Shown: piece after piece, positions 5,690 through 61,806 of the stretch | Layout of the letters: every line of letters begins with the position of its first letter | Position numbering within the stretch: the first letter of the stretch is position 1 | Origin: Heterobilharzia americana | Lineage: Eukaryota > Platyhelminthes > Trematoda > Strigeidida > Schistosomatidae | Direction: 5' to 3' | DNA length: 64,000 nucleotides | Assembly (NCBI GenBank): GCA_944470555.2 | Contig: OX104130.1 | Span: forward strand, 76,699,160-76,763,159 | Program-made: the position numbers and the translations under genes | Notes under the pieces: generated by a model | The model's database searches: none | What the model was told of the DNA's origin: nothing | Seen by the model: the letters and a program-made list of their open reading frames with translations, nothing else

Positions 5690-5989
5690 GAATCCTTCTT
5701 TGAGTGAATTTATCGCTTTGATATTCATCTTTCTCTTACTGAGTGATTATTTCTCTTATTCTTCATTTACGATACGAATCAGTTGGCTTTGTCCAGCCCT
5801 ATGAAAAATCAGTTACCACCCAACTAGATGCTTGATAACGTCTCTGCCTATAGTATTTAACAACACAGATTCAAATCCCGAATGAAATACCAGTTCCATC
5901 AAGACTGTAGATCAACACAAAAGCAATGTTAGGCAGAGCTTTCTGGCGATTACCTCAAGTGAGCTAACACTTTTATCCGTCTTTATGGA
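5690..5989. other. Interval between PLE fragment and inverted-repeat arm
   Basis: About 300 bases, probably including the PLE 3' untranslated tail. No gene seen. The outer boundary of the large inverted repeat falls at 5990, where similarity to the right flank stops. Confidence 0.4.
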
Positions 5990-6862
5990 GAAATCAGTCA
6001 TTTTCTTGCAAACCTTCTCATTCAATCATAATGAATTATCAAATGACTTTAAGATGACATTCATTTCCACTGCAATGTCTTCCAATAGGATTATGACAGC
6101 ATAACTTTAAGAGATGAAACTAGGAAGAAAGGTTGAGTAATCGGCTCATAAACTGTGTTATAATTTAACTGAAAATTTTCCCACTGCAACTAGTGGAAAA
6201 CAGTGTTTAAGTCAATATATATTCTTGTTTATTTCCCAACAGGTTATACGAATACATTCAGCAATTATCCAGTATAGATATTTTTGATACTGTTATAGTC
6301 AATATAATTTGGATCCGATCTCATGAACTACAGGGGAATAATATAGATGATAATGACTATAAAATATCATGTGAATGCTTTTAAAATCATAAATCATTGC
6401 TTGTCTTTGAGCAGTTATTGTATACGTGTTTAGAATGGAGAGAAATAAATTATCTTCGCAAACCAATTCAATAGTGAAACTGAGAGAAAGGCTATGAGAA
6501 TTTTGGGATTAAAAAATGTTTGGATTCTTGATAAATTCAGAAGTTAGGAACGAAGTACGAAATTTAAGTAGATTAGGCCGACGATGATTTGTTGTAATAA
6601 AAATGGAACTTAAAATAATATTTCACCATTCACCCAGTTCTACTGGGAGAACAAAGCTATTTCGGTTGTACTCCGATTAAACAGAGAAAAGAAAACATAC
6701 TGAAGAATTGTTCTGGCTTTCTGTATATAATGGCAAAGGCTGAAGACTTGATGTTCGATGGTTGAAAGCAATCGTTAGGAAGCTGTGATGAACTTACGTT
6801 TTGTGCTTGCTGGTGTTCATCTGCAAGGCGTACAGGCAAACATGAAAAAGTGTAGTACTTTC

Positions 6863-6928
6863 AATGATTCACACCCATATCACTCACGATGTTGAAGTGA
6901 CAGACGTAACCAATACGCCATTCAGGCC
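6863..6928 (-). repeat. tRNA-like SINE head (left-arm copy)
   Basis: Mirror of 46600-46665. Read on the minus strand it has a TGGCGTATTGGTTACGTCTG stretch resembling a pol III A box and a GGGTGTGAATCA stretch resembling a B box about 30 bases on, as in tRNA-derived SINEs. It is too degenerate to be a tRNA gene. Family membership is inferred. Confidence 0.3.
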
Positions 6929-8627
6929 ATGACTGACTCCTTGTTGAACTGGTTTTTATACATAGGTTGGTCACAAGTGGAGAACCGATGTAACTGTCCA
7001 GTACTAAGGGCTAAACACTGATCAAAATCTATCGATCAAGGTTCTGCAATCTATCGACTAAACGACAATGTAGTGCACTGTGTTTTGCGTATTGGTTGAA
7101 GTTTCATCAGTCTGATGTATGGCATTTACTAGATAAGCGATTATTGGACTCTAAGTAGACTTCACACTTCATTTATTCAAAAATATGTGATTGAGTTACA
7201 ATGGGGAATTCAGTCTCGTCTCTCACATGAAACTGAAAATACTAAACCAAATGACTTGTAACAAAACATGTCTATGACTACAAAACTGCTTAATGAACGG
7301 TCAGATTAGGAACAACTGAAATGACCAACTAGACGATTTTGCGTTATGGAGACCTGGTTTTCCAGCTGAAATGGAGAAACTTGACTGTTTATTTCAGTCG
7401 TTGCTAGAGTGGCCCTTGAAATCACCCATAAACGAGGACATTGACGTAGTACCGTCTCCGTTCAAATTGCCACAATTCACATTTGCATGCAAGGAACAAG
7501 ATTACAGAAAAATGATATTCAGTGAGATATTCATGTGCATGAAGAGACCGGTGGATAGTGGAGGTACATAGACTTTTCAAGAATATGCAGATGACAAAGA
7601 ATGTATGACAGATCTTACTTAGTGCAAAGAGTCTCTAGTCCTTGATTTCTATGTTCTAGAGAAATCTGATTCGACACTCTACACTTATTTACATGACTCA
7701 GAGCAACGATAGGCTGCTTCTTGTGCTGATGTCAAGCTTTCTCGTGACTACTTTTAATTCTTCGACCCAATAATATTTCGTCCGACATCCCTTGTTGAAG
7801 TAAGCAGTCATAGTTTTTCCTTCCAACATTCATTCCAGTGACACTTTACCTTCTCTTACAACGTCGATCATCTCATTCATGATCTTGTCTATTCGAATTT
7901 CATCATTACGCTTTTCTCTTTGCATGTATATCTCAAAAGAGAGTATATTCTTTCGCATGAAAACTGATTATCAAATATTCCCTTTAAACTGTTGTTTCCA
8001 AACTCCACAACATTTTCCATTCGGGTAGGAAATGTAGTTATAATTACAACGATGAATGCATAAACAAGATTCTCAAGTGACTTGTGTCTTCATGTATGAC
8101 TATCTATCAGTAGAAATGGTAATGTGGGTTAATAGGATAGCGAACAAAACAAAGGTAATATTGAAATGTCATTAGGATAACTGGCCATTTCGGTTCTTCG
8201 GTTATATATCCATGGTAGAAATGAACGAGTTAACGTATAATGATGACAATAAGATCTCAACTACAATCAATCACTAATATAAAACGATTATGAGATTTTG
8301 TTTACAAAATGTATTTGTGAATCACCCATTTCATAATCAAATATTACATGGGTACCTGTCATGTGGAAATCTCACGCTTCCACTGCCATTTGCATTCATC
8401 TCATTCCTATCGGAAACACATTCTCAACATGAAACATATCAACTTTCAATGTTTGCAAAGCACCTATCACAGAATCATTCATTTTCATAGTGACTTGCAT
8501 CTACTTGGTTGGAGGTAATTGACAAGGAGCCTTTGATATGAGTTTTATGCATATTGGCATCCATCTAAAGGTATATTTGCTATCTTAAGGGAAGTGATGT
8601 CCTATCAGAGACTCGGACATTTATCTC

Positions 8628-8687
8628 AAAGTACTGGGATTTGAACTCGCCTCCCACAGTACTGCAGTCAATGGTGTCACCTCTGAG
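8628..8687 (-). repeat. tRNA-like SINE head (left-arm copy)
   Basis: On the minus strand the segment has an A-box-like GGTGACACCATTGACTG and a good B-box-like GAGTTCAAATCCC, separated as in a tRNA, after which the tRNA likeness stops. It is a SINE-type head rather than a functional tRNA. Its mirror is 42817-42876. Confidence 0.4.
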
Positions 8688-10350
8688 TTATTTTAGATGC
8701 GAGTTAATCCCTCACAAGTCGCAAAATGGAAGAAATCTAGGTTTGTGCTTTCATTATCAGCACCTCTAACCAACTAACATCTTTCATACAGAACAACCAT
8801 GGTGAGTCGTCTAGCTTGGTAGCCATATTAGAAAATGATCAATGGGATTTGGTTGGAACTCAGGACTTGGTAAAAAGAAACTGGTTACTCTCCAGTGACT
8901 GCATACTTTCCTTATCCTATAAGGAAGAACTTCACATCAATCTTCCGTTTATGAACTATCTATTCAATTGTCAACTCATCGAATTTTAACAAATCATAAT
9001 ATCATCCAACTATCGACAAAATACTGACAGAACACATTCAAACCATTCATTTTTTGTAGAAAGCTTCGAGTCTTGGCATGCATACTCATAAGCGAAAGGA
9101 TGTGACTGGGTAGGGACAAATAAGTAGAGTTTACTTTGTCTGGTCTGTATAATTTTCCTGAAAAAGTGACTCGAGTGGTGGTGAATGGGACCAGTTTAGA
9201 TTTTCCAGCTGAATAATGAGGCCAAAATATTTTCGCAGTTTCTGGCTAAGAAGGAATGTGTGTGAATGTATGGGAATATCTTCTACTGACCAGCTCCTAA
9301 GTGGTGTGTCTTTCATTCACCAAATTATGTAAAGCTTTCCCAGAATGAAAACATCATTCATCGTCTAGCTGAATGTCAATCCTTTTATTCAATGGTCTGA
9401 GTGAAATTTATCCAGATAACAAAGCGTTTGAGCTAAAATAAAATTCTACTATCTTCCTTCATCACATATATGTATGCGAAGCACAAATCAAAGTTATATA
9501 TCCTCTTCTCCAACTCAATACCTCACCAACATTTCGGCTGTTGTGACACTAATGAGTCAAGATAATTCGATTGGTTATTTATGCCTAAACTTGAATGGCC
9601 AAGTCTGTGCTCTCATGTAACATACTGTGTGGACAATGCATTCATCTAAGTTTTGGAAAATGGAGTAATACAGATATCAGTAGAAGGCATTTCGTAGATG
9701 AATAATAAATACGACCATTGCAGACATAAACACCAATGGACTACAGTAACACTAACATCAATATTTGCTTGATCATTTTACACTCAGATCTCTGCCATAT
9801 CTATTCATGATGACGAATACACCTCACTGATAAAAAGCTCTGGAAAGAAGCTGAAGTTTCTCAATGGCAACTTTTACGTTTGTGGGGATTTATTTGTTGA
9901 CTTGAGGTTGGTGTTCATCTCGGACTGACATCGGTTGGAGTGAGTACCTATGAAGACCTGAGAGGACTGGACAGCTATTTCATATAGGTGCACAATCCAC
10001 TCCGACAATGTGCACCTATGAACTCGTCAGAGAAGGAACCAAGCTACCCAGCTTTCACCACGATCGCCTTAACATTTTTCTAATAGGTTCGATTCCAATG
10101 ATCCACATCTTGTTTCTATCCGAAGTTTTCAGATGTTCAACGGTTCTCCATCTGATGTCAGTCATTGATGAATAGCAGATTGAAATCATTGAAATCCTCA
10201 CAAACTCGAAATGTCTGTACATTAACAGAAGTTTCTTCTGATTTCTCCAGTAATGATGGTGGTGTGTGAGAAGCATGAATATTTGTGGTGTCTGCTAAAA
10301 AGACTTAACATAGTGCAAAATTATATCAGATAGACTTGTGAGAAAAAGAA

Positions 10351-11340
10351 TAAAAATTATTTGCCATTCTTAGATATCCTCTTGAGTCAACGAGAAGACG
10401 GTTCAATAAGATGGTCAGTTTATAGAAAGCCTCAATGGGCAGGGAGATATTGGAATTTCTGTAGTTTTGTTGACCCCAGCACAAGTGAGACCTGCTTGAT
10501 AAAATGATCATTAAATACCATCTGTGTTATCTGTAGATTAGATATGGTGGATGAAAATATCAAATTACTGACCGAAACAAATATGGAATACGGATACCCG
10601 CTGAAGTTTATGAACCCCTGTAGAGGTCAGGTAACACTAATGCCAACTGTTTATTTAGTTCCTAAGACAAGTGTTCATATCCCTCCACCACACACTGGGA
10701 CCTTTAATGATATGATTTGAGACGTAGCTTGGTAACAGCCATTATGCAGCTAAGCTCATTATTGCGGAGTGGACAAAACACATGTTTCACCGTACACCCA
10801 AACACTTTTGAGTGATTATGCTATATTTCACTGGGTGCTTAAGAAAAGTACTAATATCACTCCACCATGCAGAGTTGAGTTGAACGATATGATTTTGAGA
10901 CGTAGGCTTAAATCAGTCATTATGAAAATATAATATGCAGCTAAGATTATCATTGTGGAAACGAAAAGACACACGTTTCACCACATGTCTGAACATCATA
11001 TACCACCATGTTTGCCAGTTTACTTTTATGTGTAGACATGTGCACAGGGGAGTTATCAAGACATTAAGTTGACGTTAGGGGAACATGTGCCTAAATGACT
11101 TGAATAACGGGTAGAATATTTAACTTTGATTAACATGGGTGGTAGACAACGCTCTTCATCTACAGCTAAACAGATCATAGAAATAGGTCACAAAATGAAT
11201 GTTTCAACTACTTTCCAATATTTGCAGAAGAACAGTCAGAGACACATACTGAGATTTGCGGAAGCGATGGCCATACACAAATCGAAACCAAATCTGATTA
11301 TACTAGAATAACCTGTTCCTACCCTATACCTATCTTGGAA
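10351..11340 (+). pseudogene. Penelope-like element remnant (RT end, linker, GIY-YIG C-terminus), left arm
   Basis: The frame starting near 10351 reads YLPFLDILLSQREDGSIRWS, then VYRKP, open to about 10720 except for one TGA at 10504. LPFLDILL...DGS...VYRKP is the PLE reverse-transcriptase signature at the palm-thumb junction, and EYGYPLKF further on is the family ENGYP block. A later NDMILRRRLKSVIMK (about 10890) matches the linker that precedes GIY-YIG, and SSSTAKQIIEIGH followed by LRFAEAMAIHKSKP (11144-11300) matches the C-terminal end. The nuclease core between them is unrecognisable. The thumb/linker section is duplicated (see 10676-11000). The mirror copy on the right arm shows that the insertion is older than the arms. 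Confidence 0.7.
10676..11000 (+). repeat. Internal tandem duplication in the left-arm PLE remnant
   Basis: Two diverged copies, about 10676-10817 and 10852-11000, with offset near 176 bases. Both carry an ATATC(A/C)CTCCACCA start, then AACGATATGATT or AATGATATGATT, GAGACGTAG, CAGTCATTATG or CAGCCATTATG, GCAGCTAAG, and CGTTTCACCA or TGTTTCACCG. The same pair is present in the right arm (about 40500-40825), so the duplication happened before the arms formed. Confidence 0.7.
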
Positions 11341-14300
11341 CGTCTCATTTATCGACTGTGATTATCATCAACTAAGTCACTGCTCCTTCTCTACTTCAAT
11401 ACGCTATTATTGGAGATGTTATATTTGTTCTGCAGTTCATTCTTTCCTTTCATATGCACTAGCTGGAGAGAATTAGATGTGTCATTATATTGTTTGAGAT
11501 TTATTGTGTAAATACATCACATATTGTTCAGACAATCTTCATCTTCCAGTTGCAGTATCTTAATGGTAACAAACCCTTTTCTACAGGTAATATTTTTGAT
11601 GCAGTAATGAGTTATCAGCATTTAATTTTTCAGCTGATTACTCCATGTAGGATCTTTTCAGGTTATATGACGTATTGTTGTGCGCTAAAGAACCCACCAT
11701 CATCCATCAAGATGTGTCTCATAATTTTATTGTGATTACTTAAAGTGATGATGGAGATCAAATTTCATGGTTTGACAACATATTGGAATGAATTAAACCA
11801 CAAAAAAGTAATTCAGAGCGAATTAATACGTAAACATCATTTTCCAGTAGACCAAACTTTAGGCCAATGGTCATATATATAATTGTCAATGACAGTCATA
11901 ATTATGCAAAGTAGCAATTTCAACCTTCGGTAAGGTCACCTGCTTTCCATAAATTCACTCCTACTAAACTCTATTTGTTATTTAAGGTTATGTCCAGTTT
12001 ATAAAAATCTTTTATTCGTCTAATCCATATCCTGGGCATAATAAAGATAGGATCACAAATCATACTGGCATTTGATGAACCTGATGCATTTCAAAACTAT
12101 ACACAGCCTATCTTATGTAACGTCCAGGTGCAACAGTCGATTTAGGGGACACTTAAAACTTTCAATGCAAATAACTGACATTACTTCAATTCTTTCAAAC
12201 GGGATTCCACAACAACTGATGAAACCTTTGGATAGCATTACCTAAATACATGTGATCGCTAAAAATATTTATCGCTAATGATATTTATAAGGGGTTGAAC
12301 TATATTACTCGAAGGTTAATGGTGAGCCTTTATATCTAATTGAATAATTTAAGTACCAGTCACCAATTTATAGCCTTTCTTCAAAAAATCACAGTCATTC
12401 ATATTGCTATCAATAGTTTTTACTTGGTGATTCCTGCATAGATCTCTGAGTGAATACTGACAATAAACCGATGACTTAGCTTCGAGAGGATCGCGTAGGT
12501 GAGTGAGTTAGCAGACGGCTTGGGTGATATCAGATTTTGTACTGATAAGTGTTTGATTATAGTCTGATATGAAGTGGACATTCATAACTTCATCAACTGA
12601 TCATTTGAAGAAGACGTGATGAAAATCACCGAATATTCCTCCCGAATTCAAATAAAAATAAAAACGAAAACTGCTAAACTAGTCAGGTGGAATAGCAAAC
12701 ACTCCTGCAATCTGCTAACTATATTCATATCATTAGAAGAACGTAGTGGTCAGTTGTCAAATTCATGAATTCAAACCTCCATTAGTGTCTAGTTAGTGTC
12801 CATCCAACCAAATCACGTTAGTGTTACTTCTGTGGCAAACAGTAATAGTTCGAGCACCTTAGAAAAACTCAGAATTCCTGAACCATTTCATCACCAGAGC
12901 ACTCCATGTTTTCGAGAAAATACAAGTGATGCCATATGTGAGTGAGAGTTGGTTGAAGAGACAACATCAAAATCCAATACCTTCTGGAAAGGCCTTGATC
13001 CGAAATAACCTTAATCCTTCAATACATCTCCTGTTATTCTATCATCATTTCTATTTCTGAGGCTTCCACACACCATCAGCGATCAAATCGAAATGGTGGT
13101 CTTTAAGCGTTTATTAACATATATCTGAATATCACGCTAATGAGTCTCACACAGAACACTTGCATGTCAACTGAACACAATTGTAGGATCCACGGGAAGA
13201 TACTCAAGCCACTGATTCCCACTTCGTGTGACTGAAAGGTGAATGCATCGAAACAGGTAGTTTAACTCTCTCTACTTGTCGACGTCATGGTGTAACAAAA
13301 TGTCACGTTTTTGTATCCACCAGTTGAAATTATCAGCTGTTCAATTTACTATATATCACAAGACAACAGAAAACTGAATGAGGTGAACTTATAGTTGTCT
13401 GTCATATCTATGTGACAAGGTTTGAAATCAACAACCCAGCCGATGCCTCACTTGTGCTTAAAACTGTGAATTATTGTAAGAGTTAACTTTGGTCATTAAA
13501 CTAAGATGTAAACCAAGTACCAGGAAGCATTATTTAAACAACAGTATATACAGAATGAAAGAAGAGCAGCCTGAAGCGTCAAGAAATTGTGTCATCTGAA
13601 CTATCAGAGCTCCAGCTTAACACATCATATAAGTCCAATAGCTTGTTGGAAATATCAGTGGAGAGAGAAAAATAACGTGAAAACCACACTGCTAATATCA
13701 CCATGGAACGAAGATGTGATGTTGTAGGAAATGAATGAAGATCAATAAATGTCAAATCGAATGAAGTCGATTGTTCATCTCTACAAAGTTACAAGTGATT
13801 CACTTGAAGTCTTGCATCATTTATCACTGAATGACACGTACTCAAACGAAAAGTGTAACACTTCCTATTAGCATTATAATGCATTGATTCTGGTCACTCG
13901 CAGTTCCACTACCATTTTACTAAAAACTACACTCATTTTCTGTGTACAGAAGTACCACCAATAGGTTGTTAAAAATACTCATGATGTGGCGACTAATCTG
14001 AATTATCAACTTCAACTGTTGATTTACTACTTTCCAGTCGTTGATGTAGTTACACACGACATGATGTGTTACTCAGTACACAACTTCGGTGAGGAAATAC
14101 ATCTGATACGAAGAGGAGCTATGCAAAGCATCCAGCGATGATTCAATCAGATTATTATTATTCACAGAGTTCATAATGCTGATCACATCTAAATATGATG
14201 TGAATCGCATTCAGAAATGTGCTGTGTATAGATGGGTCATTCAGTTGCTTCAGACACACTAACATTTATGACCATAGAAGATACGCCAGACAAAACAGAC

Positions 14301-17300
14301 GCTTTCATAGATGCTTTTGACTGTGTTGTGATTATCAAATGTACAGAGTACTCCATGCAATGAATCATACTCTAAAGAACTTTAAAACTGTAAATAGACT
14401 TATTTTTCAATGAGAACAGTGACTTCCATCTTGGTAACATCAATGGTTATCATCATTAATTCATTCAATTCTCAAAATATTCAGGCGAAAACCTACAATT
14501 CCCTCAGCTATACGAAATTGCTTTGTTCGCATCATGATTACACAACTTTGTGGAATCGTTCCAAAATAACTGGGTTACTCAAATTGAATAGCCTGTTCTC
14601 TTTGTTAGCAGAAGTTTGAAACGCGTAACTTATGTGTATATCATGTAACTCAAGTATTTCCGTAGGTTGTTCTGCATACATGTTTTCAATTAATATGCAG
14701 AAAACTTCTTTCAGCAACAATATTTTCAGATACTACAACTTCAGGTGATACATCCTTCATATTTTGAAGTGTATCTGATTTTATTTTTCCTAACTAACGC
14801 ACACATGAATAAGTTTGACTGCCATATAATTCAGATAAACTGAAGAAACCGTTAAAAGCTGTGCAGGTAATCAACATTTTTCTTTGTCCTTTTTTGAATG
14901 ATGCTCAGTCTTATCAAGCTAGAAGAATAGCTCCAAGCATTGAACACATTAGCTAGACTGATGTCCATCAAAAGGAAGTTTGAGGAATTACAACGCTGTT
15001 TTGAACACACTTCCAATGTTGTCATTGATGGTGGTAAACTTTCACATTTCACAATGAATAAGATATCTAAGGCATCATATTTTCATGAGTTAACTATACA
15101 CTCGTAATCATGTAGCCTCACAGAGGATAGGTGACAAGAACCTTTTGACCTTTTAATTCCCCTTCTCACAAAAGCGGTCACCCAGGGGGGCAACTAATAT
15201 CCTGAGCGTAACAGAGATACGACTGAAGGTGCTACATACCTTTAAATGACAAGCATCCACCAGTAAATAAAATACCTCACTGAAAGCAATGGGTGAACAA
15301 ATTAACACTGGAATCACTTATGGTAGGTGCAGAAGAATGTAGCAAACCAAGCTGGTCATCGGAAAATGTCGCACCTCATAGACAGAAGACACAGACTAAT
15401 TAAATGATGCTTCGCTGTTAGGCAAATATAAAAAACCTGTTGACATTGCACCTCATTCATACACATGTTCTACCGAAAAGCAAACCAGCCAATTCATACA
15501 TTGTTGCAGCCGTGGGGTATAGGTTGATTGGCCTTTCCAGTCCGAAGAGTGACCATAATACTTTATTACCTCATGAATAGTAAATCCATCTTCCAGATCA
15601 CCAAAAAGCGTATCCCATTTGAATTCTTGTTATTGTAGCAGACAGTCTGCATAGAAATGTTATCCTTTTCGATATATTACGAAAAAAGATACACACCATC
15701 TCCTAAAATGAATAGTTTTTCACTCGCTTTGCTCACTTATTTGCCGTAACTCATAGTATCATCAGGATTTGAAGCTTATAAATATACAAGTGTGAAACAG
15801 ACACAACTATGACTTGCCCCCTTCAAATTACTTCATGCAATATCACAAAGCTGACTAAGAAATCTGACGATTTCATTTCAACACAAGCTATCACAATATA
15901 TCCCTTAGTGAATGAGATCGTATTCTGTCTAACACATAGTAGCCCATTGGTGATCTAGAGGTAAATTATATTTGGTTACTATAAACAGACAACAGAACAC
16001 ATCAAATCTATGATTGGTCTGCACTCTTTAATACCAGATAACATGGAAACCATTTCTTTCTGAAGATATCCATGAACACGTTTTCATCAACGATGACACC
16101 GACATCGTGAAAATCATGACAATGACATCCAAATTCTTGACCACTTTGCGAAGCACATTATTTGACTTTTCCAGGTAACAAGTACTTTACCACAATATGT
16201 GTAAACCTGATATCACAGATGGTCATGGTAGTAAGCTCTAAGATATCACATTTGAAGCCACAAATCTACAACAGATTCAAATGGTCAAGCTTTCATAGAT
16301 CGATTCAAATTCGCTGGTCATGAACGAATGTAACATGTTTGCCGCATTTTATGATCACAGCAAATCCTTGTAGTATTTGTTATTTCATAAGCTACTGACT
16401 CTTATTCAATCAGCATTAAGCATAATTTGTTGTTCAGGTAGTTGTCAATTATTTGTTTTTGTCTACACTTGTTATGTAGTGCAATTCACTGCTGTTCATA
16501 TTACACACTCAAACGAAGCCTTTTCACTAATGAATGTAGACACAGAGTATATTTGATTTCTACCACTCCAAATATACAATGAAGTTTCGCAAATACACTT
16601 TGACGAAACCTGACGCAAACCACAACCACTCACGTTTGTACTTCTAGTCAGATGAGCTTTATTCATAAGTGGATTTGGCAATCTAGAGTGTAAACACTTT
16701 AAGTGAAATAAAGTAATGCTTATTAATATATACTTATAATGGATGACTCCTACCTTACTCACATCAACATTGACTTCTATACAACTAGACATACTACTAA
16801 AAAAGCAACTTGAAATGGAGTAGAATATCTTACCAGATTATTCTATTGAATGTTGATTTTTCAGTGGTCTGTAAATATTTACTTTCTCTCATCCCATTGT
16901 TTTCGCTAAACAGCTTATATTTCCATGATATTCATCATATCCAGACTGGTGAACATGAGATGATAAGTGTGTGTTGTTTGGATTGAAAAAGTTAACCTGA
17001 TATTTGATAACTGCTTTACTCACCACCAAAGGAAGAAGAAATCTATTCAATCACCTTCTGAAATCCTGTATTCCACACTTTCCTATCAACAATCTACACA
17101 ATTTGTTCAATCTCCTACTCTATACCTGTCACAGTTGATGCTGTGGAGTGACAGTTCAATCACTCCTGTCTGTGTATTGCACAGTCAAGTTGACCAGATC
17201 CTCCCCACTAGAAGAATAACAACTCCAATCAAGCTAGTCAAGCATTATGTCGCCTACATTCGAAGAAAACAGCAGACGAACAATTCACTTTGACTTCAGT

Positions 17301-18553
17301 GTTGTGAGCCATTCGAATCAAGTTTGTGGTAGTAATTTTGTCAATCAATAAGTAAACATTGTCAATACTGTCGCCAGATTCTCCAGTGAAAGTACATTAT
17401 CTGACTGACAGAACTGATCATTCATGATGCCCAAGTGTAATTCACATACCTTTGATTTAAAACTTGTGTAACATTCAGTAGCCATCAGGCTTCGTAATTA
17501 AACTGGTCTCTGTGAAGCTTTATCTGAATCTGAATCAGAATATTTCTATTCAGGAGTAAAGTATTTTGAATAATAACTGAAATATACGATGATACAATGT
17601 TAATAGCACCTGCTTACCACAATAGACTGGATTTTGTAACTTGAAGACAGATTTCCATTGAACACAATGGTCGAAATTCAACAATATGTAACAGAAACCA
17701 CAGTAGACAACTCTGGTGTTATTTTGTCTTCTGATTAATCAGAAAACCTCTATGATTCAGTAAGTGAAGGTAATATTCTGAAGAAAATGCCACTGATTTG
17801 TGAGTGAATAAGTATTCCTGAAACGGTTTACGCCTTGTCAATCGATTACACACCCCGTAATAACTCCATTTTACAATTCCTTGAATGCTTCATGAACTTC
17901 TTGTATATGGTTACCATCTAGAACAACAACAGTTCACCATATGGCACCCATCTTTCCTGACCTATCCAAAATCTAATGATGCGATGAAATAAAGTGTTTA
18001 TAGAGTCTACTAATTGTTTCGTCCACTGAGATATACTGAAGCTCAGTGTGTTGGATTATATTGATTTCAATAACCTAAATGATTGGCATCAGATAGGAAA
18101 GCATCGTAAACCAAAAACTGTTTCGTCCACTATTGTTACTACACAACAGATCAAATGTCTTCAAATGCAGTCTGTGATCCCCAACTATCAATGACATATC
18201 TAAGCTCAGAAGAGTAGAATTAAGTGCAGTCCTTGAATGCCATCCCATCCACTTTAATGCAAGAAAACTTATGGCCAGATTCGGGATAAATCAGAGTCAT
18301 GCACTGCTACTGAATTACTTACCGCGGTAAACACAACCACCTCCAACTAAATAGGTTCCCATTGGTTTCTGACTTGACATCTTTTCATGCTGATGGTCAT
18401 TTTCTAGTGATACACTTTTCTGTAGTATGTAGCTGATGAGAGGATAAACCCGATGAGTTATTCATGGAAATTCCGAAAAGAATCCATTGATTATAAGTGA
18501 GATTGTCTGAGACAACCGTGGTTCGGTAGACCGATAATGTTGATACCGAATAT
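11341..18553. other. Left-arm interior, no gene recognised
   Basis: AT-rich DNA. The longest open frames (for example 16967-17293 plus, 108 codons, and 16496-16792 minus, 98 codons) appear identically in the other arm only because the DNA itself is near identical. They have no domain, signal or repeat that I recognise. The step in arm identity lies at about 14.4 kb inside this stretch. Confidence 0.45.
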
Positions 18554-18613
18554 TGACAAGATTCAAACCAGCTACCTCAAAGTTACCGGTGTGGTGCTGT
18601 GCCCATTGAACTG
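18554..18613 (-). repeat. tRNA-like SINE head (left-arm copy)
   Basis: Minus strand: an A-box-like stretch around CAATGGGCACAGCACC and a B-box-like GCTGGTTTGAATCTTG, spaced as in a tRNA-derived SINE. The following bases (to about 18760) may be its body. The mirror is 32881-32940. Confidence 0.35.
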
Positions 18614-23334: not shown

Positions 23335-23825
23335 TTAATGTGCTATGTTGAGTAGACTAATCAGATCCGAGACATGTTTCAGGCTACCATAGACAACAAA
23401 TGCGTCGTCAACATACCTACTATAGAAGGTTGTCTCATCTATAGTATACTTGGCACTCATAGACCGCCTGTCACAACACCATCAATTTAACGATGCAAAA
23501 CGTTGTTGAATTTACATTGTACAGTCTTAGTGAATATGAGTAATAAGTGTTGGAATTCTTCTTCTCTGAACAGAGACAAAAGATATCACAATTGTTTTCG
23601 GTTGTAAGCAGCTAGTGGGAAACACCAAAATAAAATGAATTCTTGCTATTCTGCTGAAGCCTTGATTCCTGTTCTGTTTGAACATTCAGTGGAAATGGTG
23701 CAGCACATGTTCCAGACACTAAAAAGAAGAAGCAGGTGAAAAGTACACAAAACATGTCTGGAATGTTAGCAGTTGCCCAAATAGTAACATGGAGAATAAT
23801 TCTTGTCCGAAATGTTATTCAGTAA

Positions 23826-23889
<64 letters not shown>

Positions 23890-24817: not shown

Positions 24818-24921
24818 AACATAGAATTCACAAAGGAATATGAATAGACTGAGTGGCTTCATTTCCTTAACTTCCGAATTCATTCGATGACGTATGGTTA
24901 TGTACTAGAATATGTACGTTT

Positions 24922-24934
24922 TAAGGATTTTTCA
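24922..24934 (+). repeat. Left target-site duplication of RTE copy B
   Basis: TAAGGATTTTTCA, repeated exactly at 28264-28276. The uninterrupted site exists once in the left arm as the reverse complement (about 23218-23230). The first three bases could instead belong to the element's TAA tail, so the true duplication is 10-13 bp. Confidence 0.9.
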
Positions 24935-28263: not shown

Positions 28264-28276
28264 TAAGGATTTTTCA
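28264..28276 (+). repeat. Right target-site duplication of RTE copy B
   Basis: Exact repeat of 24922-24934, directly after the (TAA)n tail. From here the right arm resumes in register with the left arm (28267 pairs with 23227). Confidence 0.9.
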
Positions 28277-32880: not shown

Positions 32881-32940
32881 CAGTTCAATGGGCACAGCAC
32901 CACACCGGTAACTTTGAGGTAGCTGGTTTGAATCTTGTCA
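32881..32940 (+). repeat. tRNA-like SINE head (right-arm copy)
   Basis: The plus-strand version of the segment at 18554-18613: an A-box-like start and a B-box-like GCTGGTTTGAATCTTG. It is a tRNA-derived repeat by appearance only. Confidence 0.35.
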
Positions 32941-35900: not shown

Positions 35901-38900
35901 GAAGATGGATTTACTATTCATGAGGTAATAAAGTATTATGGTCACTCTTCGGACTGGAAAGGCCAATCAACCTATACCCCACGGCTGCAACAATGTATGA
36001 ATTGGCTGGTTTGCTTTTCGGTAGAACATGTGTATGAATGAGGTGCAATGTCAGCAGGTTTTTTATATTTGCCTAACAGCGAAGCATCATTTAATTAGTC
36101 TGTGTCTTCTGTCTATGAGGTGCGACATTTTCCGATGACCAGCTTGGTTTGCTACATTCTTCTGCACCTACCATAAGTGATTCCAGTGTTAATTTGTTCA
36201 CCCATTGCTTTCAGTGAGGTATTTTATTTACTGGTGGATGCTTGTCATTTAAAGGTATGCAGCACCTTCAGTCGTATCTCTGTTACGCTCAGGATATTAG
36301 TTGCCCCCCTGGGTGACCGCTTTTGTGAGAAGGGGAATTAAAAGGTCGAAAGGTTCTTGTCACCTATCCTCTGTGAGGCTACATGATTACGAGTGTATAG
36401 TTAACTCATGAAAATATGATGCCTTAGATATCTTATTCATTGTGAAATGTGAAAGTTTACCACCATCAATGACAACATTGGAAGTGTGTTCAAAACAGCG
36501 TTGTAATTCCTCAAACTTCCTTTTGATGGACATCAGTCTAGCTAATGTGTTCAATGCTTGGAGCTATTCTTCTAGCTTGATAAGACTGAGCATCATTCAA
36601 AAAAGGACAAAGAAAAATGTTGATTACCTGCACAGCTTTTAACGGTTTCTTCAGTTTATCTGAATTATATGGCAGTCAAACTTATTCATGTGTGCGTTAG
36701 TTAGGAAAAATAAAATCAGATACACTTCAAAATATGAAGGATGTATCACCTGAAGTTGTAGTATCTGAAAATATTGTTGCTGAAAGAAGTTTTCTGCATA
36801 TTAATTGAAAACATGTATGCAGAACAACCTACGGAAATACTTGAGTTACATGATATACACATAAGTTACGCGTTTCAAACTTCTGCTAACAAAGAGAACA
36901 GGCTATTCAATTTGAGTAACCCAGTTATTTTGGAACGATTCCACAAAGTTGTGTAATCATGATGCGAACAAAGCAATTTCGTATAGCTGAGGGAATTGTA
37001 GGTTTCAGCCTGAATATTTTGAGAATTGAATGAATTAATGATGATAACCATTGATGTTACCAAGATGGAAGTCACTGTTCTCATTGAAAAATAAGTCTAT
37101 TTACAGTTTTGAAGTTCTTTAGAGTATGATTCATTGCATGGAGTACTCTATACATTTGATAATCACAACACAGTCAAAAGCATCTATGAAAGTGTCTGTT
37201 TCGTCAGGAGTATCTTCCATGGTCATAAATGCTAGTGTGTCTGAAGCAACTGAATGACCCATCTATACACAGCACATTTCTGAATGCATATCACATCATA
37301 TTTGTGATGTGATCAGCATTATGAACTCTGTGAATAATAATAATCTGATTGAATCATCGCTGGATGCTTTGCATAACTCCTCTTCGTATCAGATGTATTT
37401 CCTCACCGAAGTTGTGTACTGAGTTACACATCATGTCGTGTGTGTCTGCATCAACGACTGGAAAGTAGTAAATCAACAGTTGAAGTTGATAATTCAGATT
37501 AGTCGCCACATCATGAGTATTTTTAACAATCTATTGGTGGTACTTCTGTACACAGAAAATGAGTGTACTTTTCAGCAAAATGGTAGTGGAACTGCGAGTG
37601 ACCAGAATCAATGCATTATAATGCTAATAGGAAGTGTTACACTTTTCGTTTGAGTACGTGTCATTCAGTGATAAATGATGCAAGACTTCAAGTGAATCAC
37701 TTGTAACTTTGTAGAGATGAACAATGGACTTCATTCGATTTGACATTTATTGATCTTCATTCATTTCCTACAACATCATATCTTCGTTCCATGGTGATAT
37801 TAGCAATGTGGTTTTCATGTTACTTTTCTCTCTCCACTGATATTTCCAACAAGCTATTGGACTTATATGATGTGTTAAGCTGGAGCTCTGATAGTTCAGA
37901 TGACACAATTTCTTGACGCTTCAGGCTGCTCTTCTTTCATTCTGTATATACTGTTGTTTAAATAATGCTTCCTGGTACTTGGTTTACATCTTAGTTTAAT
38001 GACCAAAGTTAACTCTTACAATAATTCACAGTTTTAAGCACAAGTGAGGCATCGGCTGGGTTGTTGATTTCAAACCTTGTCACATAGATATGACAGACAA
38101 TTTAAGTTCACCTCATTCAGTTTTCTGTTGTCTTGTGATATATAGTAAATTGAACAGCTGATAATTTCAACTGGTGGATACAAAAACGTGACATTTTGTT
38201 ACACCATGACGTCGACAAGTAGAGAGAGTTAAACTACCTGTTTCGATGCATTCACCTTTCAGTCACACGAAGTGGGAATCAGTGGCTTGAGTATCTTCCC
38301 GTGGATCCTACAATTGTGTTCAGTTGACATGCAAGTGTTCTGTGTGAGACTCATTAGCGTGATATGCAGATATATGTTAATAAACGCTTAAAGACCACCA
38401 TTTCGATTTGATCGCTGATGGTGTGTGGAAGCCTCAGAAATAGAAATGATGATAGAATAACAGGAGATGTATTGAAGGATTAAGGTTATTTCGGATCAAG
38501 GCCTTTCCAGAAGGTATTGGATTTTGATGTTGTCTCTTCAACCAACCTCTCACTCACATATGGCATCACTTGTATTTTCTCGAAAACATGGAGTGCTCTG
38601 GTGATGAAATATTTCAGGAATTCTGAGTTTTTCCTAAGGGTGCTCGAACTATTACTGTTTGCCACAGAAGTAACACTAACGTGATTTGGTTGGATGGACA
38701 CTAACTAGACACTAATGGAGGTTTGAATTCATGAATTTGACAACTGACCACTACGTTCTTCCAATGATATGAATATAATTAGTAGACTGCAGGAGTGTTT
38801 GCTATTCCGGCTGACTAGTTTTGCAGTTTTCGTTTTTATTTTTATTTGAATTCGGGAGGAATATGAGGTGATTTTCATCACGTCTTCTTCAAATGATCAG

Positions 38901-40165
38901 TTGATGAAGTTATGAATGTCCACTTCATATCAGACTATAAACAAACACCTATCAGTACAAAATCTGATATCATCCCAAGCCGTCTGCTAACTCACTCACC
39001 TACGCGATCCTCTCGAAACTATGTCATCGGTTTATTGTCAGTATTCACTCAGAGATCTATGCAGGAATCACCAAGTAAAAACTATTGATAGCAACATGAA
39101 TGACTGTGATTTTTTGAAGAAAGGCTATAAATTGGTGACTGGTACTTAAATTATTCAATTAGATATAAAGGCTCACCATTAACCTTAGAGTAATATAGTT
39201 CAACCCCTTATAAATATCATTAGCGATAAATATTTTTAGCGATCAAATGTATTAAGTAATGCTATCCAAAGGTTTCATCAGTTGTTGTGGATTCCCGTTT
39301 GAAAGAATTGAAGTTAAGTCAGTTATTTGCATTGAAAGTTATAAGTGTCCCCTAAATCGACTGTTGCACCTGGACGTTACATAAGATAGGCTGTGTATAG
39401 TTTTGAAATGCATCAGGTTCATCAAATGCCAGTATGATTTGTGATCCTATCTTTATTATGCCCAGGATATGGATTAGACGAATCAAAGATTTTTATAAAC
39501 TGGACATAACCTTAAATAACAAATAGAGTTTAGTAGGAGTGAATTTATGGAAAGCAGGTGACCTTACCGAAGGTTGAAATTGCTACTTTGCATAATTATG
39601 GCTGTCATTGACAATTATATATATGACCATTGGCCTAAAGTTTGGTCTACTGGAAAATGATGTTTACGTATTAATTTGCGCTGAATTACTTTTTTGAGGT
39701 TTAATTCATTCCAATATGTTGTCAAACCATGAAATTTGATCTCCATCATCACTTTAAGTAATCACAACAAAATTATGAGACACATCTTGATGGATGATGG
39801 TGGGTTCTTTAGCGCACAACAATACGTCATATAACCTGAAAAGATCCTACATGGAGTATATCAGCTGTAAAATTAAATGCTGATAACTCATTACTGCATC
39901 AAAAATATTAACTGTAGAAAAGGGTTTGTTACCATTAAGATACTGCAACTGGAAGATGAAGATTGTCTGAACAATATGTGATGTATTTACACAATAAATC
40001 TCAAACAATATAATGACACATCTAATTCTCTCCAGCTAGTGCATATGAAAGGAAAGAATGAACTGCAGAACAAATATAACACTTCCAATAATAGCGTATT
40101 GAAGTAGAGAAGGAGCAGTGACTTAGTTGATGATAATCACAGTCGATAAATGAGACGAACCAAGA
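32941..40165. other. Right-arm interior, no gene recognised
   Basis: Mirror of 11341-18553. Up to about 37.1 kb it is almost identical to the left arm; beyond that, substitutions become frequent. No coding sequence could be supported. Confidence 0.45.
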
Positions 40166-41150
40166 TAGGTATAGGGTAGGAACAGGTTATTCTAGTATAA
40201 TCAGATTTGGTTTCGATTTGTGTATGGCCATCGCTTCCGCAAATCTCAGTATGGGTCTCTGACTGTTCTTCTGCATCATTGGAAAGTAGTTGAAACATTC
40301 ATTTTGTGACCTATTTCTATGATCTGTTTAGCTGTAGATGAAGAGCGTTGTCTACCACCCATGTTAATCAAAGTTAAATATTCTACCCGTTATTCAAGTC
40401 ATTTAGGCACATGTTCCCCTAACGTCAACTTAATGTCTTGATAACTCCCCTGTGCACATGTCTACACATAAAAGTAAACTGGCAAACATGGTGGTATATG
40501 ATGTTCAGACATGTGGTGAAACGTGTGTCTTTTCGTTTCCACAATGATAATCTTAGCTGCATATTATATTTTCATAATGACTGATTTAAGCCTACGTCTC
40601 AAAATCATGCCGTTCAACTCAACTCTGCATGGTGGAGTGATATTAGTACTTTTCTTAAGCACCCAGTGAAATATAGCATAATCACTCAAAAGTGTTTGGG
40701 TGTAAGGTGAAACATGTGTTTTTTTTAACATTCCTCAATAATGAGCTTAGCTGCATAATGGCTGTTATCAAGCTACGTCTCAAATTCATATCATTAAAAG
40801 TCCCACTGTATGGAGGAGGGATATGGAAACTTGTCTTAGGAACTAAATAAACAGTTGGCATTAGTGTTACCTGACCTCTACAGGGGTTCATGAACTTCAG
40901 CGGGTATCCGTATTCCATATTTGTTTCGGTCAGTAATTTGATATTTTCATCCACCATATCTAATCTACAGATAACACAGATGGTATTTAATGATCATTTT
41001 ATCAAGCAGGTCTCGCTTGTGCTGGAGTCAAGAAAACTACAGAAATTCCAATATCTCCCTGCCCACTGAGGCTTTCTATAAACTGAGCGTCTTATTGAAC
41101 CGTCTTCTCGTTGACTCAAGAGGACATCTAAGAATGGCAAATAATTTTTA
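40165..41150 (-). pseudogene. Penelope-like element remnant, right-arm mirror copy
   Basis: The same remnant as at 10351-11340 in opposite orientation. On the minus strand the LPFLD...DGS...VYRKP block lies near 41060-41150. A 91-codon open stretch at 40682-40957 covers MVDENIKLLTETNMEYGYPL and the thumb/linker block PPYSGTFNDMNLRRSLITAI. The left-arm copy has a stop shortly after FNDM where this copy stays open, so the two have decayed separately. It is not functional: the rest is broken and the GIY-YIG core cannot be read. Confidence 0.7.
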
Positions 41151-42816
41151 TTCTTTTTCTCACAAGTCTATCTGATATTATTCTGTACAGTGTTAAGTCT
41201 TTTTAGCAGACACCACAAATATTCATGCTTCTCACACACCACCATCATTACTGGAGAAATCAGAAGAAACTTCTGTTAATGTACAGACATTTCGAGTTTG
41301 TGAGGATTTCGATGATTTCAATCTGGTATTCATCACTGACTGACATCAGATGGATAACCATTGAAGATCTGATAACACCGGACAGAAACAAGAATATGTG
41401 GATCATTGGAATCGAACCTATTAGAAAAATGTTAAGGTGATCGTTGTGAATGCTGGGTAGCTTGGTTCCTTCTCTGACGAGTTCATAGGTGCACATTGCC
41501 GGAGTGGATCGTGCAACTATATGAAATAGCTGTCCAGTCCTCTCAGGTCTTCATAGGTACTTACTACAACTGATGTCAGTCCGAGATGAACACCAACCTC
41601 AAGTCAACAAATAAATCCACACAAACGTAAAAGTTGTCATTGAGAAACTTCAGCTTCTTTCCAGAGCTTTTTATCAGTGAGGTGTATTCGTCATCATGAA
41701 TAGATATGGCAGAGATCTGAGTGTAAAATGATCAAGCAAATATTGATGTTAGTGTTACTGTAGTCCATTGGTGTTTATGTCTGCAATGGTCGTATTTGCT
41801 ATTCATTCTACGAAATGCCTTCTACTGATATATGTATTACCCATTTTCCAAAACTCAGATGAATGCATTGTCCAGACAGTATGTTACATGGAGCACAGAC
41901 TTGGCCATTCAAGTTTAAGCATAAATGACCAATCGAATTATCTTGACTCATTAGTGTCACAACAGCCGAAATGTTGGTGAGGTATTGATTGAGTTAGACA
42001 AGAGGACATACAACTTTGATTTGTGCTTCGCATACATACATGTGATGAAGGAAGATAGTAGAATTTTACTTTAGCTCAAACGCTTTGTTATCTGGATAAA
42101 TTTCACTCAGACCATTGAATAAAAGGATTGACAACTAGCTAGACGATGAATGATGCTTTCATTCTGGGAAAGCTTTACATAATTTGGTGAATGAAAGACA
42201 CACCACTTAGGAGCTGGTCAGTAGAAGATATTCCCATACATTCACACACATTCCTTCTTAGCCAGAAACTGCAAAATATTTTGGCCTCATTATTCAGCTG
42301 GAAAATCTAAATTGGTCTCATTCACCACCACTCGAGTCAGTTTTTCAGGAAAATTATATAGACCAGACAAAGTAAACTCTACTTATTTGTCCCTACCCAA
42401 TCACATCCTTTCGCTTATGAGTATGCATGCCAAGACTCGAAGCTTTCTACAAAAAATGAATGGTTTGAATGTGTTCTGTCAGTATTTTGTCGATAGTTGG
42501 ATGATATTATGATTTGATAAAATTCGATGAGTTGACAATTGAATAGATAGTTCATAAACGGAAGATTGATGTGAAGTTCTTCCTTATAGGATAAGGAAAG
42601 TATGCAGTCACTGGAGAGTAACCAGTTTCTTTTTACCAAGTCCTGAGTTCTGACCAAATCCCATTGATCATTTTCTAATATGGCTACCAAGCTAGACGAC
42701 TCACCATGGTTGTTCTGTATGAAAGATGTTAGTTGGTTAGAGGTGCTGATAATGGAAGCACAAACCTAGATTTCTTCCATTTTGCGACTTGTGAGGGATT
42801 AACTCGCTTCTAAAAT
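41151..42816. other. Outer right-arm DNA, no gene recognised
   Basis: Mirror of about 8.69-10.35 kb with several percent divergence and small indels. Open frames here differ in length from those in the left arm because of independent stops, as expected for noncoding DNA. Confidence 0.45.
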
Positions 42817-42876
42817 AACTCAGAGGTGACACCATTGACTGCAGTACTGTGGGAGGCGAGTTCAAATCCCAGTACT
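42817..42876 (+). repeat. tRNA-like SINE head (right-arm copy)
   Basis: A-box-like GGTGACACCATTGACTG (from about 42825) and B-box-like GAGTTCAAATCCC (about 42859-42871). It is likely the head of a tRNA-derived SINE and the counterpart of 8628-8687. Confidence 0.4.
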
Positions 42877-44072
42877 TGTGATAAATGTCCGAGTCTCTGA
42901 TAGGACATACTTCCCTTAAGACTGTAAATATACCTTTAGATGGATGCCAATAGGCATAAAACTCATATCAAAGGCTCCTTGTCAATTACCTCCAACCAAG
43001 TAGATGCAAGTCACTATGAAAATGAATGATTCTGTAATAGGTGTTTGCAAACATCTGAAAGTTGATATGTTTCATGGTTGAAATGTATTTCCGATAGGAA
43101 TGAGATGAATGCGAATGGCAGTGGGAGCGTGAGATTTCCACATGACAGGTACCCATGTAATATTTGATTATGAAATGGGTGATTCACAAATACATTTTGT
43201 AAACAAAATCTCATAATCGTTTTATATTACTGATTGATTGTAGTTGAGATCTTATTGTCATCATCATACGTTAACTCGTTCATTTCTACCATGGATATAT
43301 AACCGAAGAACCGAAATGGCCAGTTATCCTAATGACATTTCAATATTACCTTTGTTTTGTTCGCTATCCTATTAACCCACATTACCATTTCTACTGATAG
43401 ATAGTCATACATGAAGACACAAGTCACTTGAGAATCTTGTTTATGCATTCATCGTTGTAATTATAACTACATTTCCTACCCGAATGGAAAATGTTGTGGA
43501 GTTTGGAAACAACAGTTTAAAGGGAATATTTGATAATCAGTTTTCATGCGAAAGAATATACTCTCTTTTGAGATATACATGCAAAGAGAAAAGCGTAATG
43601 ATGAAATTTGAATAGACAAGATCATGAATGAGGTGACCGACGTTGTAAGAGAAGGTAAAGTGTCACTGGAATGAATGTTGGAAGGAAAAACTATTACTGC
43701 TTACTTCAACATGCGATGTCGGACGAAATATTATTGGGTCGAAGAATTAAAAGTAGTCACGAGAAAGCTTGACATCAGCACAAGGAGCAGCCTATCGTTG
43801 CTCTGAGTCATGTAAATAAGTGTAGAGTGTCGAATCAGATTTCTCTAGAACATAGAAATCAAGGACTAGAGACTCTTTGCACTAAGTAAGATCTGTCATA
43901 CATTCTTTGTCATCTGCATATTCTTGAAAAGTCTATGTACCTCCATTATCCACCGGTCTCTTCATGCACATGTATCTCACTTAATATCATTTTTCTGTAA
44001 TCTTGTTCCCTGCATGCAAATGTGAATTGTGGCAATTTGAACGAAGACGGTACTAAGTCAATATCCTCGTTT
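42877..44072. other. Outer right-arm DNA, no gene recognised
   Basis: Mirror of about 7.43-8.63 kb. The frame 43014-43214 (minus) matches 8290-8490 (plus) with several amino-acid changes in its second half and no sign of selective constraint. Confidence 0.45.
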
Positions 44073-46098
44073 GTCTGAGAAAGTTTCAAGTGATTTACTG
44101 ATTCATGAGAAATAAGTTATCAGTCCACTCAAATTTGAATCATGCATGTGGGTTACAATATCAACCAACAGTAGGTTCACACTCTGCATATTTTTGAGAT
44201 TCGAAGTGTATTGGTTACCGCTACTTATGCATTCCATGCATCCTTTTTATCCTTAGAGTTTCGTATTAGACATCTGTTTCCAGGATGTTTGATGAGTGTG
44301 CTGTGTGCTTGCAGAATGTATATACGAATAGCTAAGGCAAAAGGCGACACTGGACTTTGCAACCATCACTTCTTGATATCTAACATCAGACACAGTGAGA
44401 CATGAAGAGAGGTCAACCCCTTTAGTGACAACATCATGTGGGGATGAGAAACCTCTGACCATAGCTCAGTAATTTGGAATTATCAGTCAGATTGCTTATC
44501 ACTTGTCATTCCTTGTAGAAATAGTAATTTTTTCCCTTGATTTCCTAGTGTAAAACAGGGATTCAGTAGCACGCCTTCATTCCACTCTCTTCTCTGCAGT
44601 CTTTTCAACCTCGCTCCACGACTGCCCACAAGCTTTCATTTCTTCCTCACACCATCTCCTTCATGTCACCCTCACCTCAAATGCCCAGCTTGTCGTTTCC
44701 CCTTTGGATTCCACTCGAGGGCCTGGCCTGGCGCGTGATGTCCTCAGTCAGCCTTCTCAGTGTATGCCCAATCCATCTCCAATCCCTTCTTCTGCATATT
44801 TGTTGGGTGATTGATTCGTAGTTGGTTCATTACCACAGTTCCATGTTGCTTATTCTTTTTATTCTGGCCATCTGACCTGATCTTCAGTATCGAGTGAGCG
44901 TAGGTGGCAGGTGTTGATGAATGTTTGTAGTTTGTTGGAAATGTTTTTCTTAACGCGCCAAGCTTCTGAACCGTATAGCAGCATTGACTTGACGTTGGTA
45001 TTGAAAATCCGGATGTTGTTCACGCTTTATGCTGAGTGGAGTGGAATGGAGTAGATCTCCACACTGATTTCAGGTTAATGAAGGAAGGCCTTCCGATAGA
45101 CTCGTTAACAAATACGTTTCTAATGCGGGTCGTTTTGTTCACCGAAACCTTCTGGCTTATGTATGGATCGAAAAACCAGTTACTACCAGATGACATGCAT
45201 TTAAATTTATTTAACGTTCTGCCGAACAACAAATTACAAAAGACCATCAAATATTCAGTATTGTGAGGCCAAGCATTGTATAGAAACTATCGTTTTTAAA
45301 TTGATGAAACCTCTGTGTGTATGAACGTATTTCGTTTGTAGTAAGTACATTGTCTAAAAGGGTTTCCAATGTGATTAAAAGTTATGCAGTGGACTCAGCA
45401 CACTCTAACTCACCAAGTGGAACACTGACACTTAAAAGCAGTAGTCTTAACGTAGCAAAATCGCTGATCTTCTGTGAAGAAAATTTAAGGTAATAACATC
45501 ATGTTTACTTAAGTAAATCTTGTATAACTGATGTATCATTTATAGATAGGTATTAGTCGAGTATTCTCTCCAGCACGTTTTATGATTACTTTTCATTTTG
45601 GACTGATGGGTCCTGCTGCCAGCCACCATCACTTCCCGCTTAAAGGCTGACTGGTACATGTCCGATTAGTTCGGTTTCGTGGCTTTTTCAACTGATGGAC
45701 TCGTGTTCACAGTGCTATTATACCCCTCGACTCTTCAGTATTTTCATCCACTTGTAAAGGTTATATTTTTGTGATCGGAGACGAACCTACGAGATTATTC
45801 TAATCCTATGCGAATATGGCAGTGAATGTTATCGGCTTGTAGATATCTCAAGCAAATATATATATTTAGTAAACAATATGATTGAGTAGGTTCCAGAAAT
45901 CTTAGTATGGATAAATGGTAATGAAGGGCATCAGTAAACTGGCCATTTGAATAGATATTACTTATCGGCGTATTCTAGATGGTACATTTTCATACCCAGT
46001 TGGTTGGAAGGGATTTCCTATTTTGGCCGTAGATCCTGAATTTCAATTTTATCAAAGCGAATGTTGCGTATCTAATGTACCGAGTATTCATACATTTT
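44073..46098. other. Segment present only in the right arm, about 2.03 kb
   Basis: The left arm reads straight through at 7427-7430, whereas the right arm holds 2,026 extra bases. The left side ends in CCTCGTTT (44065-44072) and the right side resumes in TTTATGGGTG (from 46096), so only TTT is shared at the joint. There are no terminal inverted repeats, no poly-A or TAA tail at the ends and no transposon gene spanning it. Inside is an old minus-strand RTE fragment (44537-45095) flanked by unassigned DNA. The pattern fits a deletion in the left arm through 3-bp microhomology at least as well as an insertion here. Confidence 0.85.
44537..45095 (-). mobile_element. 5'-truncated RTE fragment, 3' end only
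   Basis: The reverse complement carries the RTE 3' end: the block with GTGCTACTGAATCCC at the 44.55-kb side, through the C-terminal coding region, to FINLKSVWRS (about 45040-45080). It is clearly diverged from B and D and has many small indels. Truncation at the 5' side is the normal outcome of incomplete reverse transcription. Confidence 0.8.
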
Positions 46099-47538
46099 AT
46101 GGGTGATTTCAAAGGTCACTCTGGCAACGACTGAAATAAACAGTCAAGTTTCTCCATTTCAGCTGGAATACCAGGTCTCCATAACGCAAAATCGCCTAGT
46201 TGGTCATTTCAGTTGTTCCTAATCTGACCGTTCATTAAGCAGTTTTGTAGTCATAGACATGTTTTGTTACGAGTCATTTGGTTTAGTATTTTCAGTTTCA
46301 TGTGAGAGACGAGACTGAATTCCCCATTGTAACTCAACTACGTATTTTTGAATAAATGAAGTGTGAAGTCTACTTAGAGTCCAACAATCGCTTATCTAGT
46401 AATTGCCATACATCAGACTGATGAAACTTAAACCAATACGCAAAACACAGTGCACCACATTGTCATTCAGTGGATAGATTGCAGAACCTTCATCGATAGA
46501 CTTTGACCAGTGTTTAGCCCTTAGTACTGGATAGTTACATCGGTTCTCCACTTGTGACCAACCTGTGTATAAAATCCATTTCAACAAGGAGTCAGTCATG
46601 GCCTGAATGGCGTATTGGTTACGTCTGTCACTTCAACATCGTGAGTGATATGGGTGTGAATCACTGAAAGGACTACACTTTTTCATGTTTGCCTGTACGC
46701 CTTGCAGATGAACACCAGCAAGCACAAAACGTAAGTTCATCACGGCTTCCTAACGATTGCTTTCAACCATCGAACATCAAGTCTTCAGCCTTCGCCATTA
46801 TATACAGAAAGCCGGAACAATTCTTCAGTATGTTTTCTTTTCTCTGTTTAATCGGAGTACAACCGAAATAGCTTTGTTCTCCCAGTAGAACTGGGTGAAT
46901 GGTGAAATATTATTTTAAGTTCCATTTTTATTACAACAAATCATCGTCGGCTTAATCTACTTAAATTCCATACTTCGTTCCTAACTTCTGAATTTATCAA
47001 GAATCCAAACATTTTTTAATCCCAAAATTCTCATGGCCTTTCTCCCAGTCTCACCATTGAATTGCTTTGCAAAGATAATTTATTTCTCTCCATTCTAAAC
47101 ACGCATACAATAACTGCTCAAAGACAAGCAATGATTTATGATTTTAAAAGCATTCACATGATATTTTATAGTTATTATCATCTACATTATTCCCCTGTAG
47201 TTCATGAAATCGGATCCAAATTATATTGACTATTACAGTATCAAAAATATCTATACTGGATAATTGCTGAATGTATTCGTATAACCTGTTGGGAAATAAA
47301 CGAGAATATATATTGACCTAAACACTGTTTTCCACTAGTTGCAGTGGGAAAATTTTCAGTTAAATTACAACTCAGTTTATGAGCCGATTACTCAACCTTT
47401 CTTCCTAGTTTCATCTCTTAAAGTTATGCTGCCATAATCCTATTGGAAGACATTGCAGTGGAAATGGATGTCATCTTAAAGTCATTTTATAATTCACCAT
47501 GATTGAATGAGAAGGTTTGCAAGGAAATGACTGATTTC
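46099..47538. other. Outermost part of the right arm
   Basis: Mirror of 5990-7427 with about 3% divergence over the stretch read (near 46.87-47.06 kb). It contains one tRNA-like segment (46600-46665) and no gene. Confidence 0.5.
46600..46665 (+). repeat. tRNA-like SINE head (right-arm copy)
   Basis: TGGCGTATTGGTTACGTCTG resembles an A box and GGGTGTGAATCA a B box, with tRNA-like spacing. The mirror is 6863-6928. It is a degenerate repeat, not a tRNA gene. Confidence 0.3.
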
Positions 47539-55640: not shown

Positions 55641-55695
55641 GCCCTATGTTTTACTAGGAACCCAAAGGACAAATAATATTAATAATAATAATAAT

Positions 55696-61774: not shown

Positions 61775-61806
<32 letters not shown>

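Follow-up and report, generated by a model that had tools for sequence, protein, structure and literature searches.

Structure and content of a large inverted repeat

The 64-kb window (the whole stretch of DNA analysed, C4:76699160-76763159, which holds no N) was compared with itself, revealing a mirror-image structure of 41.5 kb in total, with two long inverted arms and a short spacer at a single locus, that is, a palindrome. Its parts are listed below in window coordinates, together with the three zones into which the arms were divided.

5990-23334, plus strand: arm A, 17,345 bp, the presumed ancestral copy, since an old dispersed repeat passes through its inner end into the spacer
23335-24817, no strand: spacer, 1,483 bp, with one full-length copy found in the genome
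24818-47538, minus strand: arm B, 22,721 bp, inverted and presumed to be the derived copy
5990-14488, plus strand: zone 1 in arm A
37006-47538, minus strand: zone 1 in arm B, which takes in the 2,026-bp private stretch
14489-23217, plus strand: zone 2 in arm A, the putative latest conversion tract
28277-37005, minus strand: zone 2 in arm B
23218-23334, plus strand: zone 3 in arm A, from the RTE site to the spacer
24818-24934, minus strand: zone 3 in arm B
24935-28276, plus strand: RTE non-LTR retrotransposon private to arm B, ends uncertain by a few bases
44073-46098, no strand: second stretch private to arm B, 2,026 bp
about 22542-23690, plus strand: old dispersed repeat over the arm A/spacer boundary, broken off at the inner end of arm B

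Self-BLAST paired 28264-44072 with 23230-7430 (98.7% identity, alignment length 15,823), 46096-47538 with 7432-5990 (96.4%, 1,443 bp) and 24818-24937 with 23334-23215 (94%, 120 bp). Inverted homology this long is not a chance match, and these alignments confirmed the giant inverted repeat with arms of about 17.3 kb described in the first-pass annotation, with sharp edges at the two outer and the two inner ends. Once its two private stretches are discounted, arm B amounts to 17,353 bp, close to the length of arm A. The arms differ at 239 of the 17,334 aligned bases, corresponding to an identity of 98.6%; since this whole-arm value lies below 99%, the palindrome was filed as partly homogenised, identity of 99.9% being restricted to zone 2.

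The spacer had been regarded as unique. One full-length copy of it was found in the genome, but it is only partly unique: about 350 bp at its start are part of the dispersed repeat which occupies the inner end of the arm as well. The spacer further contains a perfect (TA)29 at 23827-23884; repeats of this type can break, and it is no more than a possible trigger of the rearrangement.

None of the 98 ORFs of at least 50 aa in arm A and the spacer had a Pfam match at 0.01, in a scan that could miss short exons, and thus no multicopy germline-expressed genes were recognised among them. Likewise, no Rfam match at gathering score was obtained in the window. Over 42 overlapping ORF frames of zone 1, where one difference is counted more than once, 51 synonymous and 159 non-synonymous codon changes were recorded, with no purifying pattern. 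Coding arms were rejected on these grounds, and the arms look non-coding.

Two stretches are present in arm B only. The 3,342-bp RTE near its inner end has broken frames, and its empty site lies at 23217/23218 in arm A; the target duplication is AAGGATTTTTCA, so that the arm-specific RTE with a clean target duplication noted in the first-pass annotation was borne out. The 2,026-bp stretch includes an RTE 3' fragment (about 44527-45089) and its ends have TTT in common; it represents either an insertion in arm B or a deletion in arm A. When 199 aa of the arm-B RTE (27521-28120) were compared with known proteins, the best scores were to Trichobilharzia szidati proteins (75-76% identity, 91% cover), and pieces from Heterobilharzia americana reached 73-90% identity with 56-69% cover among the at least 120 matches listed. 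Lack of RTE in the arms was considered as a special feature and dropped; RTE-free stretches of 25, 20 and 16 kb occur within 100 kb.

Divergence and putative conversion between the arms

Similarity is uneven along the arms: differences between the two copies define three zones of unequal divergence. Between 5990 and 14400, in zone 1, 223 of 8,400 sites differ (2.66%), whereas zone 2 (~8.75 kb) shows just 8 differences in the 8,749 aligned columns lying between those at 14488 and 23238 (0.09%). Divergence in zone 3 is 5.1% (6 of 117 sites, 23218-23334; 95% CI 1.9-10.8%); the interval is wide and the zone spans 117 bp only. All 21 small indels are found in zone 1, at 7530-14189, and none in zone 2; if they were spread evenly over both zones, the probability of all falling in zone 1 would be ~3e-7. 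A fit with two changepoints, its borders at the zone edges, improved twice the log-likelihood by 272. Runs limited to 8 substitutions reached 8,750 columns at their longest, compared to a maximum of 2,079 in 2,000 shuffles. In both arms zone 1 passes collinearly into zone 2, with no indel or junction at 14488. At the other side, divergence resumes at 23238, 21 bp beyond the RTE site, after 3.5 kb free of differences; the position of the tract's end point is a probability argument, since the last difference within zone 2 is at 19722.

A near-identical tract flanked by more divergent sequence and ending at or very near a large one-sided insertion is the predicted signature of arm-to-arm conversion halted at unpairable DNA, and a recent transfer of the inner half from one arm onto the other seems to have taken place. 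The first-pass annotation had invoked such conversion, which receives indirect, internal support from the bounded tract seen in this one assembly. The RTE would then have been in place before the last conversion. The GC content is 37.1% in zone 2, 36.2% in zone 1, 34.0 and 35.8% in the non-RTE flanks and 33.4% in the spacer, a grading as GC-biased conversion predicts, although the gradient is small and a nearby RTE-free stretch reaches 42.7%.

The age of the RTE was approached with a tree of 12 local RTE copies, some of them partial, built on the 3' kilobase and drawn from 264 kb around the locus. The terminal branch of the arm-B copy measured 3.75%, a value that is an upper limit because the sample was confined to those 264 kb, and part of this branch may predate the insertion. 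Halving the divergence between the arms gives 1.3% for zone 1 and 2.6% for zone 3, the interval of the latter being wide. Taken with the restriction of the insertion to one arm, the RTE branch fits arms whose origin predates most of the divergence they now show. Zone 3, which the RTE would have screened from conversion, agrees with the age of the element, and zone 1 looks younger, as though converted at an intermediate time.

Two further RTE copies, at C4:76625115-76628282 and 76667100-76670267, each carry a 1,056-aa open frame and lie very close to one another in the local tree, and for this reason the family was probably active recently. An inverted RTE-related pair with 94% identity was also observed at window positions 54732-55686 and 61421-62402, each member with a TGGC/GCCA tetranucleotide run.

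Polarity, proposed history and alternatives

The dispersed repeat at the inner end of arm A, which is degenerate, was compared with its relatives on contigs C60, C6 and C2, chosen because their spacer and zone-2 matches were less than 1 kb apart among the matches listed. In all three, the repeat was collinear over the arm A/spacer meeting point, with 61-75% identity in the 125-135 bp at either side. At the inner edge of arm B, the C6 match stopped exactly at 24818, a low-identity C60 match extended 42 bp into the spacer, and C2 had no match to that piece. Another pair of spacer and zone-2 matches, on C4 near 29.5 Mb, was 2.7 kb apart and on opposite strands. As the repeat is continuous at the arm A/spacer junction and broken at the edge of arm B, we take this junction to be old and arm B to be derived. 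The genome candidates that were scored gave two near-full copies each for zone 2 (14500-23217) and for the outermost 1.4 kb of the arm, all of them within the window, and the next zone-2 match showed 67% identity over about 600 bp. Junction microhomology, read by eye, was 0 or 1 bp.

The present order is X-arm A-spacer-inverted arm B-Y, where X and Y are the outer flanks and arm A and the spacer are joined as in the old repeat elsewhere. We consider it probable that this is a real chromosomal palindrome in which an ancestral arm A gave rise to an inverted copy, arm B, and drift was followed by a conversion of the inner half that halted at the RTE. The ancestral locus would have been X-arm A-spacer-Y; a fold-back or template switch, with at most 1 bp of microhomology, could have set a copy of arm A in inverted orientation between the spacer and Y. 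Afterwards, arm B would have received the RTE near its inner end, the outer half would have seen 2 kb gained by arm B or lost by arm A, and the arms would have drifted to about 2.7-5% difference. Conversion may then have rewritten about 8.75 kb of the inner half, halting at the RTE because the other arm lacks the element and could offer no pairing there. Similarity between the arms could stem from their physical closeness, with a 1.5-kb spacer allowing hairpin-like pairing; as the arms look non-coding, this similarity may need no selection, and the best reading is that they are kept alike by closeness and not by gene selection.

The haplotype join suggested as an alternative in the first-pass annotation would make the palindrome an artefact of assembly, in which the arm's copy from a haplotype was inserted inverted between the spacer and Y at a locus whose true order is X-arm-spacer-Y. 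The 2.7% and 0.09% blocks could indeed be allelic, as divergence between alleles of a recombining population can also switch abruptly between high and low, presence or absence of an RTE is a common allelic difference, and the 329 contigs beyond C1-C8 may include haplotigs (the 13 sampled measured 14-189 kb). However, a haplotype join normally leaves a gap and the window has none, so that a plain scaffold join does not account for it. A head-to-head join should also extend the homology into the flanks, yet that shared by X and Y is limited to 147 bp at 65% (E 0.002), perhaps a dispersed element fragment, and the left flank (about 4620-5989) had no second match among the 40 candidates scored out of 922. 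Moreover, the haplotig ends would have to coincide exactly with both breakpoints, one of which lies inside the old repeat. The absence of gaps, the lack of relation between X and Y, the count of two copies and this breakpoint all weaken the artefact, which stays in consideration as an unlikely explanation.

It is less likely still that a real inverted duplication was left without conversion, its inner half having been duplicated later or held by strong sequence constraint. Two-step duplications exist and zone 2 could hold some unrecognised function, but the collinearity of zones 1 and 2 through 14488 speaks against a later duplication, and constraint hardly explains a sharply bounded 8.7 kb with zero small indels and few substitutions; the 98 ORFs of arm A and the spacer matched no Pfam family, and the window had no Rfam match at gathering score. 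A single giant mobile element bounded by terminal inverted repeats of 17 kb would share the inverted ends and the short middle of this structure. We regard it as highly improbable, because neither the spacer nor zone 2 nor the outer 1.4 kb had a further copy among the scored candidates, no target duplication is visible at 5989/47539, no ORF of at least 50 aa in arm A or the spacer matched Pfam, and the arm A/spacer boundary falls inside an unrelated old repeat. A DNA transposon with long inverted ends was rejected for the missing outer target duplication, transposase Pfam match and extra scored copies.

Chromosomal setting and related structures

The assembly comprises 664.9 Mb in 337 contigs, the largest of which, C1 to C8, measure 162.6, 79.5, 86.8, 85.6, 37.1, 46.1, 36.1 and 116.7 Mb (C4, 85,565,828 bp; C8, 116,706,024 bp) and are not ordered by size. 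Their order fits the numbering of S. mansoni, 1 to 7 and then Z, and under it C4 would be autosome 4 and C8 would be Z. This order suggests that the palindrome is autosomal, and the sex-linked position found attractive in the first-pass annotation has gained no support so far, since the window is on C4 and not on C8, which is Z-like by order and size under that assumed convention. Females of H. americana have a ZWA system, an autosome having been drawn into the sex chromosomes. This autosome could be C4, and the autosomal reading is weakened by that system. In Schistosoma, Z and W copies of u2af2 are described in PMC8662593.

Conversion between palindrome arms is a repair process known chiefly from sex chromosomes. 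Long arms, a short spacer and arm-to-arm conversion are shared with the palindromes of primate X and Y chromosomes. The divergence of zone 2 (9e-4) is close to the median arm divergence of 4.7e-4 given for 12 conserved primate X palindromes (PMC8981503). The fluke palindrome differs from these in that only half of the arm is homogenised and no gene was found, and a sex-chromosome position is established in the primate case only. In size, both arms and spacer resemble W.P1 of the willow Salix purpurea, with evidence of conversion, arms of 20,071 and 19,550 bp and a spacer listed as 3,586 bp in a table and as 2.6 kb in the text of the paper (PMC7023750). W.P1 is female-specific, with five gene families and arms over 99% identical, in contrast to 98.6% and no recognised gene in the fluke (PMC7023750). 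Lacking found genes and over 99% whole-arm identity, the structure does not belong to the sex-chromosome palindrome class as defined. An ordinary inverted segmental duplication would also place an extra inverted copy beside its source, with nearly blunt junctions, but would not explain the bounded near-identical tract that ends at a one-sided insertion. A partly homogenised, gene-converted chromosomal palindrome is a kind already known.

Among the open-licence papers listed on palindromes or long inverted repeats and on the species and its sex chromosomes, no schistosome palindrome came up, though this does not prove that none exists. The usual explanation for large converted palindromes is gene protection on non-recombining chromosomes. 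We tentatively propose, with slightly less than even confidence, that the locus is an autosomal gene-free flatworm palindrome kept alike by closeness-driven conversion, where the one-arm RTE acted as a wall and left a strip of old divergence behind it. A palindrome with no gene found in it, on a probably recombining chromosome, would suggest that geometry is sufficient by itself. The locus also offers a natural test of transposons blocking conversion, and in fluke assemblies such palindromes may be collapsed or wrongly discarded by assemblers.

Several repeats were observed next to the palindrome. To the left of the window, C4:76673746-76692065 is a satellite array whose 9-bp motif (AAATACTAC) is degenerate and which shows, in part, a 1,243-bp higher-order unit. 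Inside it is a 143-bp N run (C4:76674556-76674698), either a gap or withheld sequence. The satellite is flanked by 2-kb inverted repeats with 94.7% identity (C4:76671752-76673749 and 76692884-76694885). A second inverted repeat, of 992 bp and 98.3% identity, pairs window positions 3073-4064 with C4:76694437-76695427 at the satellite border, and a related 450-bp copy (93.8%) is found on the opposite side of the satellite. Finally, a direct repeat of 0.7 kb with 84.7% identity flanks the palindrome, at window positions 49892-50561 and C4:76695584-76696260.
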